Shown piece after piece: positions 37,634 to 58,129 of a DNA stretch of 64,000 bases (position 1 is its first letter; each line of letters opens with the position of its first letter). Below the pieces are notes generated by a model, which saw only the letters and a list, made by a program, of their open reading frames with translations, had not been told where the DNA came from and ran no database searches. The translations under genes and the position numbers were made by a program. The stretch spans positions 901,716 to 965,715 of the forward strand of contig NZ_LT629969.1 of assembly GCF_900104665.1 (NCBI RefSeq), read 5' to 3'. The stretch is from Traorella massiliensis. Lineage in GTDB: Bacteria; Bacillota_I; Bacilli_A; Erysipelotrichales; Erysipelotrichaceae.

Positions 37634-38609
37634 AAATTTTTATATCAAGTCATTCATTTTACTATTTCTCTTTGTTTCACTTGTATGTCCGCTATTTGCG
37701 ATGTTTTTAAATTTAGGTCAAGTAGATGTTGCTAGAATTTTTTCTTCTCCTTATTTTATTACCATTATAATAAATACGATTACTGTAACATTAACTGCAA
37801 CCATTATTAGTGTTTTACTTGCTTTTATATCTGCATGGTTTGTAGCAAGAAGCAATATAAAACATAAAAGTCTTTTAGTAGCTTTATTTACGATACCCAT
37901 GTTGATTCCTTCAATTTCTCATGGTACAGGATTAGTTGTGCTTTTTGGAAATAATGGTGTTATTACTAACCTTTTAAATGTAAATTTTAGTATATATGGA
38001 TTTTGGGGAATTGTTATTGGTTCACTTTATTATTCATTTCCTGTAGCATTTTTAATGTTCTATGATAGCCTTCAATATGAAGATGGAACAGTATATTTAG
38101 CTGCTAATGTCTTAGGTATACCTAGATATAGTCAATTATTACAGATTACCTTGCCATATCTTCGTAAAACGATGATTGCTGCTTTTTTTAGTGTTTTTAC
38201 GCTTGTATTTACTGATTACGGAATTCCATTGATGATAGGTGGAAAATATACAACGCTTCCTTTGTATATGTATAATGAAGTAATTGGATTATTAGATTTT
38301 GGGAAAGGGGCATTAATTGGATGTTTGTTAATGATCCCGGCTTTTATTGCCTTTCTTGTTGATATTTTTAATAAAGAAAATGTCATTATTAATTTTCATA
38401 CTTATCCTTATATACCTTCTGTAAATAAGTGGAGAGATATTATTGCGAAAAGCTGGTCTACGTTATTGATTGCAACGGTGTACAAAGGGAACATAATAAA
38501 AAACTTAATAATGGACTGCCAATCTTACACAAAGTACCGCCCAAACGAGACTACGGGCGGTATTTTTGTATCATGGCGGAGAAAGGAGGAACTTCCCACG
38601 GGGGCTTGA
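37623..38609 (+). pseudogene. ABC importer permease truncated by the ICE insertion
   Basis: From ATG 37623 (AAAGGAAG ahead). Residues 1-285 are a normal inner-membrane permease half (six helices; EAA-like loop YLAANVLGIPRYSQLLQITLPYLRKT), plus the start of the linker to a second half. Permeases of this type are about 550 residues with two such halves. After about 38480 the reading frame enters GC-rich element DNA and adds 43 unrelated residues before a chance stop at 38607-38609. The missing half should lie beyond the other end of the element, outside the window. Confidence 0.78.
38535..38567 (+). terminator. Rho-independent terminator at the left ICE end
   Basis: TACCGCCC (38535-38542) and GGGCGGTA (38555-38562) pair perfectly and TTTTT follows. 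It would stop transcripts entering from the disrupted host operon. Confidence 0.8.
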
Positions 38610-38632
38610 CTGAAAAGTTGAGCCCCTTTTTT
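38601..38632 (+). terminator. Second terminator ahead of the ParB-like gene
   Basis: GGGGCTTGAC pairs with GTTGAGCCCC using two G-U pairs, followed by six T. A 32-codon frame (ATG 38573) crosses it but has no ribosome site, so a leader-peptide attenuator is possible only weakly. Confidence 0.7.
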
Positions 38633-38660
38633 CATGCCAAAAAACAGGAGGTAAATGCTT

Positions 38661-40034
38661 ATGGCAGATGATAAAACCACAAAAACGCCGGAACAGCCGG
38701 TAACGGATACCGGACCGGGCAAGGAAACGCCGCCCACTCCCCCAAAAGAGCCAGAGAAGGTTTCCGTTTCCCCGGAGCCGGAAAAAAAGACGGAACCGGA
38801 GGTAAAGAACCCACAGGTTTCTGTCTATAACTTCGCTGAAATTATGAAGGAAAAGAAGGTCGAGGAACGGGCGGCAGCTCCCAGCGGGGAAAAGCCTGCC
38901 CCGGCAAAAACGGAAAAACCGGAAAAGCAGCCGGAGGCTCCGAAGAAAGCGGAGGAAAAACCCAAAGAGCCGGAACAGCCAAAGCGCCGGGGCCGTCCCC
39001 CGAAAGCAGATAAGGACAAGGCCGCAGCCCCGAAGCCCAAAGCTCCTGCACAGAAACCGGAAAATGCGGTCAAAAAGGAACCGGAGAAAAAAACGGCTCC
39101 AACGGTACAGGCCGCTCCCGCTCCGAAGGAACCCGAGAAGCCGAAGGATGCACCACGCCGGGGCAAGGAGCAGATCGTCTATATCAAGCTGAACGAGCTT
39201 CACGCCTTCAAGAACCATCCCTTTGAGGTTCGGGATGATGAAGAAATGCGGGCTATGGTGTCCAGCGTCAAGGACAAGGGCGTGACCCAGCCCGCTATCG
39301 TCCGTCCCCGTGAGGATGGCGGCTATGAGATCGTGTCCGGCCACCGCCGCCAGAAGGCCAGCGAGCTTGCCGGATATGCGGATATGCCCTGTATTGTTCG
39401 CAATCTGACGGACGATGAAGCCATCACGCAGATGGTCGAGGACAATCTCAACCAGCGTGAAGAAATCCTCCCCAGTGAGCGGGCCAAAGCCTTGAAAATG
39501 CAGCTTGAGGCCATCAAGCACCAGGGCTCCCGCACTTCGGGCCAGATTGACCCGAAGGACGCAGGAAAACGCTCCAACGAAATTGTAGCCGAGCGCAATA
39601 AGATGGCGGTCAAGCAGGTGCAGCGGTATATCCGGCTCAATGAGCTGGTTCCCGACCTGATGAAGCTGATGGATGAAAAAAAGCTGGGCTTTACTACGGC
39701 GGTGGAGCTTTCCTATATCGGCAAGAAGAACCAGAACTATATCGCCGTCGCCATTGACAGCCAGCAGTCCTCGCCTTCACAGGCGCAGGCAAAGCGTATG
39801 CGTGAGCTGGACGAAAAGAAGCTGCTCAACGGGGATGTGATCGACGGCATTATGATGGAGGACAAAAAGGAGGTAGACAAAGTGATTTTGACAGGTGCGG
39901 AACTGAGCAAGTATTTCGGCAAGGAAACTACGCCGAGGGAAATGAAGGACCAGATCGTCAAGCTGCTGGACGACTGGAAGGGTCAGCAGAAGGAACATGA
40001 AAAGCCGGAGAAGAAAACCGAACAGGAAAAGTAA
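38661..40034 (+). CDS. ParB-like partition/nucleoid protein
   Basis: 457 residues from ATG 38661, with AGGAGG 9 bases ahead (ATG 38655 is too close). Residues 1-165 are low-complexity Pro/Glu/Lys sequence with an AT-hook-like RRGRPPK. The ParB N-terminal domain starts at VYIKLNELHAFKNHPFEVRDDEEM, with VSGHRRQKASELAG and the box LTDDEAITQMVEDNLNQRE, followed by an HTH region. No ParA gene is adjacent. In such ICEs it may aid maintenance of the circular form or act as a regulator; which DNA site it binds is unknown, and the dispersed palindromes of this element are a candidate. One palindrome copy lies inside the gene (39535). Confidence 0.85.
   Translation: MADDKTTKTPEQPVTDTGPGKETPPTPPKEPEKVSVSPEPEKKTEPEVKNPQVSVYNFAEIMKEKKVEERAAAPSGEKPAPAKTEKPEKQPEAPKKAEEKPKEPEQPKRRGRPPKADKDKAAAPKPKAPAQKPENAVKKEPEKKTAPTVQAAPAPKEPEKPKDAPRRGKEQIVYIKLNELHAFKNHPFEVRDDEEMRAMVSSVKDKGVTQPAIVRPREDGGYEIVSGHRRQKASELAGYADMPCIVRNLTDDEAITQMVEDNLNQREEILPSERAKALKMQLEAIKHQGSRTSGQIDPKDAGKRSNEIVAERNKMAVKQVQRYIRLNELVPDLMKLMDEKKLGFTTAVELSYIGKKNQNYIAVAIDSQQSSPSQAQAKRMRELDEKKLLNGDVIDGIMMEDKKEVDKVILTGAELSKYFGKETTPREMKDQIVKLLDDWKGQQKEHEKPEKKTEQEK
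39535..39557. repeat. ICE palindrome copy 1 (inside the ParB-like gene)
   Basis: Arms CTTCGGGCCA and TGACCCGAAG around GAT; one C-A mismatch between arms. Read in frame as TSGQIDPK, just after the ParB box region. Confidence 0.8.
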
Positions 40035-40041
40035 GCCCAAA

Positions 40042-40064
40042 CTTCGGGTCAGCATGGCCCGAGG
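40042..40064. repeat. ICE palindrome copy 2 (after parB)
   Basis: Arms CTTCGGGTCA and TGGCCCGAGG around GCA; both deviations are T-G wobbles. It begins 7 bases after the parB stop codon and precedes the large inverted-repeat region. Confidence 0.85.
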
Positions 40065-40067
40065 ATT

Positions 40068-40282
40068 GCGGGGCTCTGCCCCGCGCCCCGAAGCTCTGGA
40101 GATATAAATTATTCCCCGTCGCCAGTTATTCCGTAGCATAGCCGGGAAAATCAGTCAAGGGCAGCGCCGCCGCAGGCGGTGCCAGAGGCACCCTTGACGG
40201 ATTTCTCCCGGTTATGCTTTTTCCCGGTCAAGCGACGGGGATATAAATTCTCCAGAGCCGTTCCCCTTCCCGGGGGAAGGGG
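40068..40282. other. Large nested inverted-repeat region between parB and the DUF7768-like gene
   Basis: Four structures follow one another. A perfect 7-bp hairpin GCGGGGC (40068-40084) comes first. Then outer arms GCTCTGGAGA (40093) and TCTCCAGAGC (to 40258) pair, followed inward by CCCCGTCGC and GCGACGGGG; between them both sides carry the direct repeat GATATAAATT (40101, 40240). Inside, 40135-40161 and 40191-40218 form a second long imperfect stem, and the centre is a GC hairpin (40164-40182). Last comes CCCCTTCC/GGAAGGGG (40263-40282). No ORF fits. An origin of transfer or single-strand origin, or a structured RNA, are the main possibilities. Confidence 0.75.
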
Positions 40283-40343
40283 CGGAGGGGTTGGGCGAAC
40301 TCTTGCTTTTCCCTAAACCAAAACAGAAATGGAGGCTCAACCA

Positions 40344-40700
40344 ATGAAACGACCTTTAGCATACCTGACCGCCGCATGGAGCGGCGAGCCGGATGTTGAT
40401 ATGGAGCTGGCGGCCCACTACTGCCGTCTTGCTTATGAGGCGGGCTTTTCCCCGATCTGCCCGCTCTTGTATCTGCCGCTGTTTTTGAATGACAGCGTTC
40501 CCGAGGAACACAAGGCCGGGATTGATATGCGCCGGGATATGCTGCGGCGCTCCCACACCCTGATTGTCTGCGGCAGCGCTGTGGACGAGGATGTAAAAAA
40601 TGATATTGCGGTTGCCGGGCGGCTGGGCATTGCGGCGACCACACTGGAAGGGGTGCTTGCCGTGAAGGGACACGGCACCCCGGGCCATGCCGGACATTAA
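40344..40700 (+). CDS. DUF4406/DUF7768-like protein (nucleoside deoxyribosyltransferase fold)
   Basis: 118 residues from ATG 40344 with TGGAGG ahead. PLAYLTAAWSGEPDVDMELAAHYCRLAYEAGFSPICPLLYLPLFL and RRSHTLIVCGSAVDEDVKNDIAVAGRLGIAATTLEGV resemble small deoxyribosyltransferase-like proteins found in phages and ICEs. The family may act on nucleotides, but no activity is established to my knowledge. It overlaps the methyltransferase gene by 14 bases. Confidence 0.65.
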   Translation: MKRPLAYLTAAWSGEPDVDMELAAHYCRLAYEAGFSPICPLLYLPLFLNDSVPEEHKAGIDMRRDMLRRSHTLIVCGSAVDEDVKNDIAVAGRLGIAATTLEGVLAVKGHGTPGHAGH

Positions 40701-41772
40701 GCTGGGAAGCCTTTTCGACGGGATTGGCGTGTTCCCTCTGGCTGCTTCTCGGTGCGGTATCCGTCCGGTATGGGCCAGTGAGATTGAAAAAGCGCCCATC
40801 TCCATAACCAAAAGGCACTTTCCCGACATGGTGCATTTGGGGGATATTACGAAGGTGGACGGCGGGAAAATCCCGCCGGTTCATGTAATTACCTTCGGTT
40901 CCCCCTGTCAGAACCTTTCTCTGATCGGCAACCGCTCCGGCCTTGCCGGGGCAAAATCAAGCCTGTTCTATCAGGCGTTTCGTATCATACAGGAAATGAG
41001 GGATGCTACTGATAACCTATATCCAGCTATCGCTGTTTGGGAAAACGTCATGGGAGCGTTTTCTACAAATGACCGGATGGACTTTAGAGCCGTCTTATCC
41101 GCCTTCTCGGACACCGAAGTTCCAATGCCTCCTTCGGGAAGATGGGGAAACGCCGGAATGGTGCGAGGGGGAACGCCTGATGTGTGCTGGCGACTCATGG
41201 ACGCCCAGTATTGGGCAGGCTCCCGAAGGCTGGCACGAAGGCAGCGGATTTTCGTCGTGGCGGATTTTGGAGGCAGACGTGCCGCAGACATACTATTTAA
41301 GCCCCGTCCAATGCTCCCACTTCCTCCGCCTTGCGGAGAGGGCGGGTGGGCCGCCGCCGAAGGAGATCGAACAGCTTCTTTTGAAACAGGGCGGCAGATA
41401 CCAGTCATCCACCCCTTTCAGTGCTTCCGTATGCGGGGAGCGGCAAAAAGGCAGGAAGAAACGGCCTTCCGAAACAGCTTCGGATTACCAACTGACCCTT
41501 TTCCCACTCTTTTAGCCAGTGATGTAACGCCCTTTGCCTTCTGGTATGAGGGCGACCCGGAGGGCGGCTGTATCCGTTTTCTGACGGAAACGGAAAGCGA
41601 ACGGCTGATGGGGCTGCCAGAGGGCTGGACAAAGTACGGGGCGGACGGCGTGGAGATCCGGCCTCTGCAACGCTACAAGGCACTGGGAAACGCGATTGCC
41701 CTCCCTTGCGCCGATTACATTATGGCCGGGATTTATGAGGTGCTGGCTGACCGGGCCGGAAAGGAGGAATGA
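40687..41772 (+). CDS. Orphan DNA (cytosine-5) methyltransferase
   Basis: 361 residues. Motif I LGSLFDGIGVFPLAA, motif IV with catalytic Cys74 in GSPCQNLS, motif VI WENVMGAFS, motif VIII-like RRLARRQRIFVVADF, and motif X ALGNAIALPCADYI are present. No restriction gene accompanies it. Methylation of the element's DNA would protect it from host restriction on entry, in concert with the ArdA protein. The centre and variable region (41003-41515) are also open in another frame. Recognition sequence unknown. Confidence 0.87.
   Translation: MPDIKLGSLFDGIGVFPLAASRCGIRPVWASEIEKAPISITKRHFPDMVHLGDITKVDGGKIPPVHVITFGSPCQNLSLIGNRSGLAGAKSSLFYQAFRIIQEMRDATDNLYPAIAVWENVMGAFSTNDRMDFRAVLSAFSDTEVPMPPSGRWGNAGMVRGGTPDVCWRLMDAQYWAGSRRLARRQRIFVVADFGGRRAADILFKPRPMLPLPPPCGEGGWAAAEGDRTASFETGRQIPVIHPFQCFRMRGAAKRQEETAFRNSFGLPTDPFPTLLASDVTPFAFWYEGDPEGGCIRFLTETESERLMGLPEGWTKYGADGVEIRPLQRYKALGNAIALPCADYIMAGIYEVLADRAGKEE
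41003..41515 (+). CDS. Candidate overlapping gene inside the methyltransferase gene
   Basis: 170 residues in the +1 frame relative to the methyltransferase. The start TYIQLSLFGKTSWERF and the segment LEADVPQTYYLSPVQCSHFLRLAERAG look like a real protein family that I recall from phages and ICEs near or inside such methyltransferase genes (memory, not searched). GAGGG stands directly before ATG 41003, and a CTG two codons later has better spacing. It ends in a tidy LTLFPLF. Function unknown. The alternative is a chance open frame in GC-rich DNA. Confidence 0.45.
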   Translation: MLLITYIQLSLFGKTSWERFLQMTGWTLEPSYPPSRTPKFQCLLREDGETPEWCEGERLMCAGDSWTPSIGQAPEGWHEGSGFSSWRILEADVPQTYYLSPVQCSHFLRLAERAGGPPPKEIEQLLLKQGGRYQSSTPFSASVCGERQKGRKKRPSETASDYQLTLFPLF

Positions 41773-41776
41773 GCCC

Positions 41777-42490
41777 ATGTTTGAAGCCTATATAACCAAT
41801 ACAGCCCTATACCCCTTAATGGGGATTGAGGTAGGGACAACGGTACATTTCCCCATGACGACACAGGAGTTGCAGGCCGCCCTTGCCAAAATCGGGATAG
41901 ACGGGAAACGGTACAGCGAAGTGTTCTTTACCAGCTTTGACAGTGATGTGCTGGGGCTCTACGATTATCTCTACGAATGTGAGAACATCGACGAGCTGAA
42001 CGAGCTGGGCCACGCCCTGCTGGAAGTACGGGATAAGGGCGGACTGGAAACCTTTGAAGCCGCTCTTGTCTTGGGAAACCACACAAGGAGCGTGAAGGAT
42101 TTGATAAACCTGACGCAGAACCTTGACCTTTACCGCTTTTACCCGGATATTTCCGATGATGAAGGGCTGGGCCGTCTTTACGCCGACGAGCTTGGGACTA
42201 TCGACATACCGGAGCACATTCAGAACTACTTCGATTATGAGGCATACGGGCGGGATGTGCGTATCAACGAGGGCGGCGTATTCGCTCCCGGTGGGTATGT
42301 GTCGGCAGTCCCGGAGGGCTTCAAGGAGTATTACCACGGGCCGCAGGACATTCCGCCGGAACACCGGATATTTGCCTATCCTGAAAAGGCCGAGCCTGTC
42401 CACTCCATTCTCGCTACACTCAAACGGTTTCAAGAAGCCCCACCCGCTCCGAAAAAGGACAAGGCGGGGCCTTCCCATGAAGAACGGTAA
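41777..42490 (+). CDS. ardA: ArdA-like antirestriction protein
   Basis: 237 residues from ATG 41777 (AAAGGAGG of the preceding gene end lies ahead). FEAYITNTALYPLMGIEVGTTVHFPMTTQELQAAL, FFTSFDSDVLGLYDYLYE, LNELGHAL, and the acidic stretch around LYRFYPDISDDEGLGRLYADELG match the ArdA family. ArdA mimics B-form DNA with acidic residues and blocks type I restriction enzymes, protecting the incoming element. A Pro/Lys-rich tail is extra. A palindrome copy follows 2 bases after the stop. Confidence 0.87.
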   Translation: MFEAYITNTALYPLMGIEVGTTVHFPMTTQELQAALAKIGIDGKRYSEVFFTSFDSDVLGLYDYLYECENIDELNELGHALLEVRDKGGLETFEAALVLGNHTRSVKDLINLTQNLDLYRFYPDISDDEGLGRLYADELGTIDIPEHIQNYFDYEAYGRDVRINEGGVFAPGGYVSAVPEGFKEYYHGPQDIPPEHRIFAYPEKAEPVHSILATLKRFQEAPPAPKKDKAGPSHEER

Positions 42491-45959: not shown

Positions 45960-46025
45960 CGCCGCCGATGTGGGCGGCTTTTTTTGTACCCAAAATCATC
46001 AAACAAACAAAATGGAGGAACGTAT

Positions 46026-55475: not shown

Positions 55476-55658
55476 ATGCACGAAAAAGACAACTATCTGA
55501 AAACCGCCGAGCTCTCCACAGAGCAGAACTGCAACATGATCGACGGCGTACCCAACAACACGCCCATCCCGCCCACGCCCCCGGAGCTGGACGCAAAACC
55601 GCTGGATAAGGTAAAGGAGCCCAAAGAACGCCGGAAAGGCCGGGAGCTGGAACGCTGA
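55476..55658 (+). CDS. Small DUF4316-like protein
   Basis: 60 residues; AAAGGAGG ahead of the ATG. HEKDNYLKTAELSTEQNCNMIDGVPNNTPIP resembles the short N-terminal part of DUF4316 proteins, then a Pro/Lys-rich end. Its stop codon overlaps the MobC-like start (TGATGG). Function unknown. Confidence 0.6.
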   Translation: MHEKDNYLKTAELSTEQNCNMIDGVPNNTPIPPTPPELDAKPLDKVKEPKERRKGRELER

Positions 55659-55999
55659 TGGAGAACCGCAAGCGGAATGTCCATCTGCACGTCATGGTAA
55701 CGCCGGACGAGCTGGCGGCCATCCATGAGCGGATGGCCGAGGCGGGCATTTCCAACGCCGGGGCTTATGTACGGAAAATGGCTCTGAATGGGTATATCCT
55801 GCACATCGACCTTGCGCCCGTAAAAGAGCTGATCTCTCTGCAACGGCGCTGTTCTAACAATCTCAATCAGGTTGCCATACACGCACATACCTATGGCGTG
55901 TACCCGGAGGAAATCGACGGATTGAAGCGGGACTATGAAAAGCTGTGGGGCGAGGTGTCAAAGGTGTTGCGGGAGCTCTCCGAGCTGGTGGCAAAGTAA
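55658..55999 (+). CDS. MobC-like relaxosome accessory protein
   Basis: 113 residues. The N-terminus (RKRNVHLHVMVTPDELAAIHERMAEAGISNAGAYVRKMALNGYI) is a ribbon-helix-helix DNA-binding domain of the MobC type; the C-terminus (LISLQRRCSNNLNQVAIHAHTYGVYPEEI) is the conserved MobC part. It should bind at the transfer origin and help the relaxase open the DNA. The relaxase gene lies 550 bases downstream. Confidence 0.85.
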   Translation: MENRKRNVHLHVMVTPDELAAIHERMAEAGISNAGAYVRKMALNGYILHIDLAPVKELISLQRRCSNNLNQVAIHAHTYGVYPEEIDGLKRDYEKLWGEVSKVLRELSELVAK

Positions 56000-56054
56000 G
56001 ACGAGGGCGGCAGGCTTCCGTTACGGGGCTTGCCGCCCTGCTCTTTTTTTACCA

Positions 56055-56077
56055 CTTCGGGCCAGTATGACCCGAAG
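56055..56077. repeat. ICE palindrome copy 14
   Basis: Arms CTTCGGGCCA/TGACCCGAAG around GTA, one C-A mismatch; 56 bases after the MobC-like stop. Confidence 0.85.
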
Positions 56078-56174
56078 GTTTGGGACAGGATTTACTAATC
56101 TTTCGCAACATTTATGTCCCCGGGCAGGCATGATAAAATAGAGGTAGGAAGGATAGATAAAGGAGGTTTTGAAG

Positions 56175-57994: not shown

Positions 57995-58017
57995 CTTCGG
58001 GCCATGTTGGCCCGAAG
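57995..58017. repeat. ICE palindrome copy 16 (after relaxase)
   Basis: Perfect arms CTTCGGGCCA/TGGCCCGAAG around TGT. It is the last copy before the cargo segment; a second hairpin (TTGGGGC/GCCCCAA) follows at about 58026. Confidence 0.9.
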
Positions 58018-58129
58018 ATACGGGTTTGGGGCGAGCCCCAACAAGCCGCCTTTGTGCCACTTGTGGCCACAGAGGCATTGCTTGCCACTTAGCGGCATCC
58101 CCTAAAATGGCGCAAAAAAACAGAGGCCC

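Follow-up and report, generated by a model that had tools for sequence, protein, structure and literature searches.

The locus and its host element

The window, by which we mean the whole 64,000-nucleotide stretch of Traorella massiliensis DNA that was analysed, holds most of an integrative conjugative element (ICE) of about 28.5 kb, which we take from its gene content to be of the Tn1549 kind. Its left end lies near 38470, where homology to related loci starts, and its first gene is a parB-like gene with a ParB_N domain (38655..40034, + strand). This gene is followed by the noncoding structure studied here, by a DUF7768 gene (40329..40700, +), by genes for a C-5 cytosine methyltransferase (40687..41772, +) and the antirestriction protein ArdA (41696..42490, +), and by a DUF3801 gene and a gene for a VirD4-type coupling protein. 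TrbL, VirB4, an NlpC protein and DarA_C come next, and then the mobilisation gene nikA/mobC (55658..55999, +) and the MobA/VirD2 relaxase gene (PF03432; 56545..57960, +). Past the window there is a small ORF and a recombinase gene, judged by eye to be of the serine type, that ends at about 67013 in window coordinates. The structure, hereafter element A, thus lies within the ICE, about 1.7 kb from its left end, between the parB-like gene and the DUF7768-methyltransferase-ArdA group; the relaxase gene starts 16.3 kb away, in agreement with the distance of 16 kb given in a preliminary description of this DNA.

Two intrinsic terminators lie in tandem at the left end on the + strand, at 38535..38567 and, just before parB, at 38600..38632, and both are conserved in related ICEs. 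This arrangement recalls the insulating terminator of Tn916 (PMC11658703). Terminator-like sites on the sense strand are also found downstream of the element, for example at 45961-45978 and 56004-56039.

Immediately left of the element is an operator-like palindrome, CTTCGGGYCANNNTGRCCCGARG (40042..40064), one of 17 copies in the window. Copies of the palindrome, CTTCGGGYCANNNTGRCCCGAAG, lie between 39535 and 63876, within the ICE only and mostly in the gaps between genes, and none was expected from shuffled sequence. Its sequence varies by ICE clade (GGGACA..TGTCCC in one, CTTCTGG..CCAGAAG in another), as if it tracked a binding protein, and the repeat resembles the dispersed KorB operators of RK2. 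Separately, a promoter-like stretch with GGGACARGATT is located at 56055-56160, before a small ORF and the relaxase gene, and the cargo directly upstream of it differs between ICEs.

A nested structure between parB and DUF7768

Positions 40068-40284 contain three nested stems, the innermost capped by a GC hairpin, and one perfect hairpin on each side. The preliminary description had reported two concentric long stems around such a tip; the nesting and the GC hairpin hold, while the number of stems is three. The outer stem is a perfect 10-bp helix (left arm 40093-40102, right arm 40249-40258). The middle stem is likewise perfect and 10 bp long, with arms CCCCGTCGC (40113-40122) and GCGACGGGG (40232-40241), and the inner stem is an imperfect helix of about 26 bp (40135-40161 and 40191-40218). 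Between the middle and inner stems an internal loop takes up 12 bases on the left (40123-40134) and 13 on the right (40219-40231). The two flanking hairpins noted earlier were located at 40068-40084 and 40263-40282, and the direct repeat said to occupy the AT-rich loop of the outer stem is indeed present on both sides of it, as GATATAAATT (40101-40110 and 40240-40249, + strand). For comparison between genomes the nested structure was modelled as R1, a stretch of about 205 bases (40086..40290, listed on the + strand); the strand predicted to fold may be either + or -.

When region 40030-40320 was folded, its stability corresponded to z = -8.85 as DNA and -8.10 as RNA, and in each case none of 200 shuffled sequences was equally stable. 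Together with the covariation described below, this rules out an ordinary chance repeat. Rfam gave no match in the window at the gathering threshold, and only weak hits below the gathering score. As for an intrinsic terminator, no T run follows any hairpin of the element on the + strand, and the terminator scan lists none in the element on that strand.

The structure is conserved and its pairs covary

A scan with the ParB-like protein yielded 60 loci, which with the window, its duplicate (L001) and two further loci (L002 and L003) made 64 records; after removal of the duplicate and of 12 records that did not match both parB and DUF7768, 51 gaps between these two genes were left. Element A is present in 44 of the 51 and absent from six (L040-L043, L047 and L048), and one locus (L061) has the outer stem only. 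Because these six related ICE loci do without it, the element is not universally required.

In an alignment of 20 sequences (A1), compensatory change was found in 21 of 82 predicted pairs. A second alignment of 17 sequences (A3) gave change on both sides in 17 of 66 pairs, a value that none of 500 shuffles reached, while controls in which the pairing was slid gave 1-6. Both-sided change affects 4 of the 10 pairs of the outer stem and 4 of the 11 helix pairs of the right flanking hairpin. These counts indicate that the base pairing is under selection. The structure is kept at about 61-64% ParB identity, and the size of the internal loop is nearly constant over the 44 sequences: its left side has 12 bases in 39 of them and 13 in five, and its right side 11-13 in all. 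The preliminary description had named a lack of conservation in related elements and of covariation among its grounds for refutation; the structure recurs in related ICEs with covarying pairs, so that neither of these grounds applies.

Searches with R1, a covariance model, found matches in 5 of 395 genomes of the class and in all 37 genomes picked for carrying such a parB locus. When plasmid and phage DNA were searched with the region, 1 of 72,556 and 2 of 50,697 records matched, respectively, none over more than 80% of the query. Among the distant R1 matches, parB lies directly upstream in L165, L166, L168, L169, L172, L173, L174, L176, L178 and L179, and nikA lies downstream in L167, L170, L171 and L182; L175 and L177 show neither parB upstream nor nikA downstream. 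R1-like hairpins also turn up at four further loci (L188, L190, L194 and L196), where they coincide with the 3' end of an HTH gene. Next to this gene is one for a replication-initiation factor, which Enterococcus and Agathobacter plasmids carry with about 95% identity.

The element is retained in minimal mobilisable elements

Extension of L167, L171 and L182 (as L232, L233 and L234) revealed mobilisable elements of about 6 kb. Each has an ICE-like left end with a terminator, an operator-like palindrome, the element, nikA, cargo, a small sigma-like ORF and an ICE-like recombinase gene, and no relaxase or transfer genes were present in their ORF lists. They appear to be satellites of these ICEs.

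Comparison of ICEs with these relaxase-less elements uncovered a conserved noncoding block common to both, which in the ICE follows immediately on the 3' side of the relaxase gene (about 57995-58100 in the window) and which we regard as the candidate origin of transfer (oriT). It comprises a GGGTTTGGGG...CCCCAACAAGC hairpin, GTGTGGCCACAC and GCTTGCC. All three elements that lack relaxase and tra genes retain element A, nikA and this candidate oriT, although the inner stem has been lost from one of them (L182/L234), and at L175, where nikA was not matched, the element and the block are both kept. A nic site between nikA and the relaxase gene (ATCCTG, minus strand), in a stretch that resembles the promoter of the relaxase operon and is only partly conserved, was set aside in favour of this block. 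The motif AAGGGTTTCC, which lies downstream of the element in mobilisable elements, was also discarded; it was absent from the helper-type ICE stretches that were read.

One of the three functions first suggested for the structure, an origin of transfer, is weakened by the existence of this separate block, and on sequence grounds element A is probably a cis site that travels with the candidate oriT rather than the oriT. That element A is itself the oriT of the ICE seems highly improbable to us: it does lie directly upstream of nikA in some mobilisable elements, but the better candidate is the block that follows the relaxase gene, which both the ICEs and the relaxase-less elements have conserved, and six ICE loci lack the element, which counts against it on the assumption that these can transfer.

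The inner stem and internal loop have a promoter-like geometry

At its tip (GTCAAGGG/CCCTTGAC) the inner stem is nearly invariant over the 44 sequences, while the middle and spacer pairs vary and covary. On either side of this covarying spacer, at a distance of 17-18 bases, stand the conserved blocks TTGAC and TGC-T of the stem. In the window, the complement of the left inner arm reads TTGACT-N17(TGC)-TA and the right inner arm, on the + strand, TTGACG-N18(TGC)-TT. When a 25-base arm was reshuffled at random, both blocks fell in register in 2 of 20,000 trials.

Arms were scored in 30 rows. In the window's clade, the minus-strand arm, read from tip to base, has TTGACW-N17-TGC-TA in 24 of 24 scored sequences, always with a spacing of 17 and with A at -11, arms having been labelled minus strand by this same pattern. 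Besides two stray rows (L052+9291 and L052-30), the 24 leave out L178, which has the other orientation, and L053, L054 and L165, unscored on the minus-strand arm as they have CG for TG; by eye, these three have lost TG on that arm but show TATACA in it. The plus-strand arm of the window's clade is mostly TTGAC[AG]-N18-TGC-TT with a bulged base. In the clade of L168, inspected by eye, it is the plus-strand arm that has the spacing of 17 and TA, and the minus-strand arm is mostly without them, so that the better promoter arm lies on the minus strand in one clade and on the plus strand in the other. Positions 3-6 of the -10 box are not conserved.

The inner stem ends at -12 and is succeeded by the internal loop and then by a 10-bp GC duplex. 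With 11-13 bases per side and 10 bp, respectively, loop and duplex are as long as a transcription bubble and the duplex that lies downstream of it. In the modelled fold, the layout of stem, loop and duplex is thus like that of an opened promoter.

The evidence on the folding strand is divided

The alignments were examined for G-T and A-C deviations from pairing. At pairs with a Watson-Crick majority, the + strand shows G-T in 72 cells at 25 pairs vs A-C in 17 cells at 11 pairs, in an alignment that was fitted to the model and may lean this way. For the inner stem alone the figures are 45 and 2 cells. A previous count, which covered 37 sequences and used a structure derived with no G-U pairs allowed, gave G-T in 16 cells at 11 pairs and A-C in 8 cells at 7 pairs. 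This excess points to a folded + strand, as RNA or as DNA, and does not fit a minus-strand DNA, whereas in the window's clade the position of the promoter arm that has A at -11 argues for the minus strand.

The relaxase gene usually enters the recipient last. If this is the case here, the transferred strand would be the + strand and the element would be a primer site; genes on the + strand could then not be transcribed from it before conversion. The element lies about 10.7 or 17.9 kb from the candidate oriT, so that its early entry is a supposition.

A second family of hairpins shares the promoter-like blocks

Among the low-scoring R1 matches we recognised another family of hairpins, family B (model R2; L181 3018-3145, L183, L198, L201-L212 and L245-L274), with matches in 10 of 395 genomes of the class and in 25 of 28 parB-locus genomes. 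Both blocks, TTGAC and TGC-TA, recur in it, and 27 of 32 left arms conform to TTGAC-N17-TG-N-TA. These hairpins occur in the same genomes as element A, mostly 0-21 bases past stop codons and co-directional with the gene. With genes named by eye, they directly follow orf8-like genes of Tn916-type modules or other stop codons, and they adjoin further cargo genes, an adenylyltransferase-like one among them. The family is repetitive, is also found beside IS genes and often forms inverted pairs around a gene. Its G-T and A-C counts are mixed. R2 scores the window's element at 38.9 bits, a kind of score that hairpins alone raise.

A and B might be two branches of an undescribed class of hairpins that imitate promoters and are widespread among the ICEs and mobilisable elements of gut Firmicutes, a proposal that we consider unlikely. 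Such hairpins, when single-stranded, would present to RNA polymerase a -35 box, an extended -10 box, a ready bubble and, in A, a downstream duplex, and would provide the first transcript or primer for anti-restriction and cargo genes on entry.

Proposed function and alternative explanations

Taking into consideration that the element is kept in stripped-down mobile elements and that it has the shape of an opened promoter, we hypothesize that it probably helps newly transferred single-stranded DNA to start in its new host. More specifically, we favour, tentatively, a hairpin that is active as single-stranded DNA and recruits RNA polymerase to prime or transcribe the transferred DNA, in the manner of sso, ssi and Frpo sites, a reading that falls somewhat short of being probable. 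Of the functions first suggested, the single-strand origin is the one that the retention in minimal elements and the promoter-mimic geometry support best. Element A would act in cis on ICE DNA in its single-stranded state, while conjugative transfer or rolling-circle replication is in progress or has just ended. A long hairpin would form from one strand, and its inner stem would expose to sigma-A RNA polymerase, in double-stranded form, a -35 box (TTGAC) and, 17-18 bases from it, an extended -10 box (TGC-T); the internal loop, with 11-13 bases per side, would stand in for a pre-melted bubble, and the middle stem for the downstream duplex. RNA polymerase would then start an RNA at the element, and this RNA would prime the complementary strand, in the way of a single-strand origin. 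In addition or instead, should it be the minus strand that is transferred, the RNA would serve as the earliest mRNA for the DUF7768, methyltransferase and ArdA genes. We infer the binding of RNA polymerase, the activity as a single strand and the strand used. The blocks shared with family B also speak for this reading. Against it count the six loci without the element, the locus with the outer stem only and the mobilisable element without the inner stem, the change of the better arm between clades, the unconserved -10 positions, the plus-strand G-T excess, and the lack of R1 and R2 matches in F and in the sso plasmids.

The main rival, a structured RNA that is transcribed with the ICE operon and acts in cis, appears somewhat unlikely; its most likely role would be processive antitermination, by which RNA polymerase could read through the terminators of the long transfer operon. 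It would account for the plus-strand G-T excess, for the placement of the element behind the gene that opens a long + strand operon with terminator-like sites further down, and for the co-directional position of family B behind stop codons; the tandem left-end terminators, similar to the Tn916 insulator, also suit it, and antiterminator RNAs do exist in Tn916 and pLS20 (PMC11658703, PMC8955417). However, the left-end terminators lie upstream of the element and so beyond its action, the element is retained where operon genes are few or absent, neither R1 nor R2 gives a match in the canT region of the Tn916-like element of pCF10, and the TTGAC and TGC blocks at a spacing of 17-18 are left unexplained. 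We think it quite improbable that the interior is a mobile, MITE-like hairpin inserted in an older one, with GATATAAATT as its target-site duplication and no function of its own. The locus that has the outer stem without the interior, the direct repeats that flank that interior and the repetitive, inverted-pair habit of family B would all agree with such an insertion, but covariation over the whole structure and conservation at such ParB divergence are not expected of a dead one. It is extremely improbable that the hairpin is a by-product of symmetric half sites in duplex DNA bound by an ICE protein such as the ParB-like protein: the adjacent operator-like palindrome and its copies across the ICE could suggest this, but it is the palindrome and not the 205-base structure that is repeated, and covariation and constant loop sizes call for base pairing.

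Comparison with known systems

By analogy, element A would work like an sso or Frpo site; we claim this likeness and not membership, because no match was found in known sso plasmids or in the F leading region. The Frpo and ssi sites of F and other plasmids (PMC9849209, PMC11541004) are noncoding stem-loops with -35 and -10 boxes. The element is likewise a noncoding stem-loop and has -35-like and extended -10-like blocks at a fixed spacing, with the -10 hexamer unconserved beyond these, and the gene set of the F leading region described there (ParB-like protein, SSB, antirestriction, methylase) resembles the element's neighbours. Element A differs from them in its layout of bubble and downstream duplex and in residing in a Gram-positive ICE. 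The F leading region gave no R1 match at E<=1 and no R2 match at E<=1e-5 and, folded as a positive control, showed no clear bubble layout. The sso sites (sso1 of ICEBs1, PMC4595007; ssoA and ssoU of rolling-circle plasmids) are likewise structured noncoding DNA on mobile elements; they depend on orientation, and RNA polymerase is recruited by some of them. Neither R1 nor R2 matched the sso-bearing plasmids pUB110, pE194 and pTA1060.

Tn916 is likewise an ICE that ends in an insulating terminator, and its antiterminator RNA, canT, is another structured cis element (PMC11658703), but canT precedes the terminator in the circular form, while element A lies past the left-end terminators. Identity with canT was not supported: the pCF10 copy contains no A or B hairpin, and the best score in the canT-bearing stretch, 14.0 bits, falls outside canT. 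The conAn system of pLS20 (ConAn1 protein and conAn2 RNA; PMC8955417) includes an RNA element whose place, like that of element A, is close to the beginning of a long conjugation operon. In the accessible text of the literature on single-stranded DNA promoters with ICEs, or on hairpins near parB in Tn1549-like elements, we found no description of the element.

How single-stranded DNA is converted was, as of 2015, a subject on which virtually nothing was known for any ICE, according to PMC4595007, and the conversion and first expression of single-stranded ICE DNA in recipients are poorly known. If the element instead acts as RNA, it would constitute a new antiterminator-like class for a large family of ICEs. 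As a conserved, covarying site that is kept in minimal mobilisable elements, element A makes single-stranded DNA conversion and first expression directly testable in ICEs that move between gut Firmicutes.
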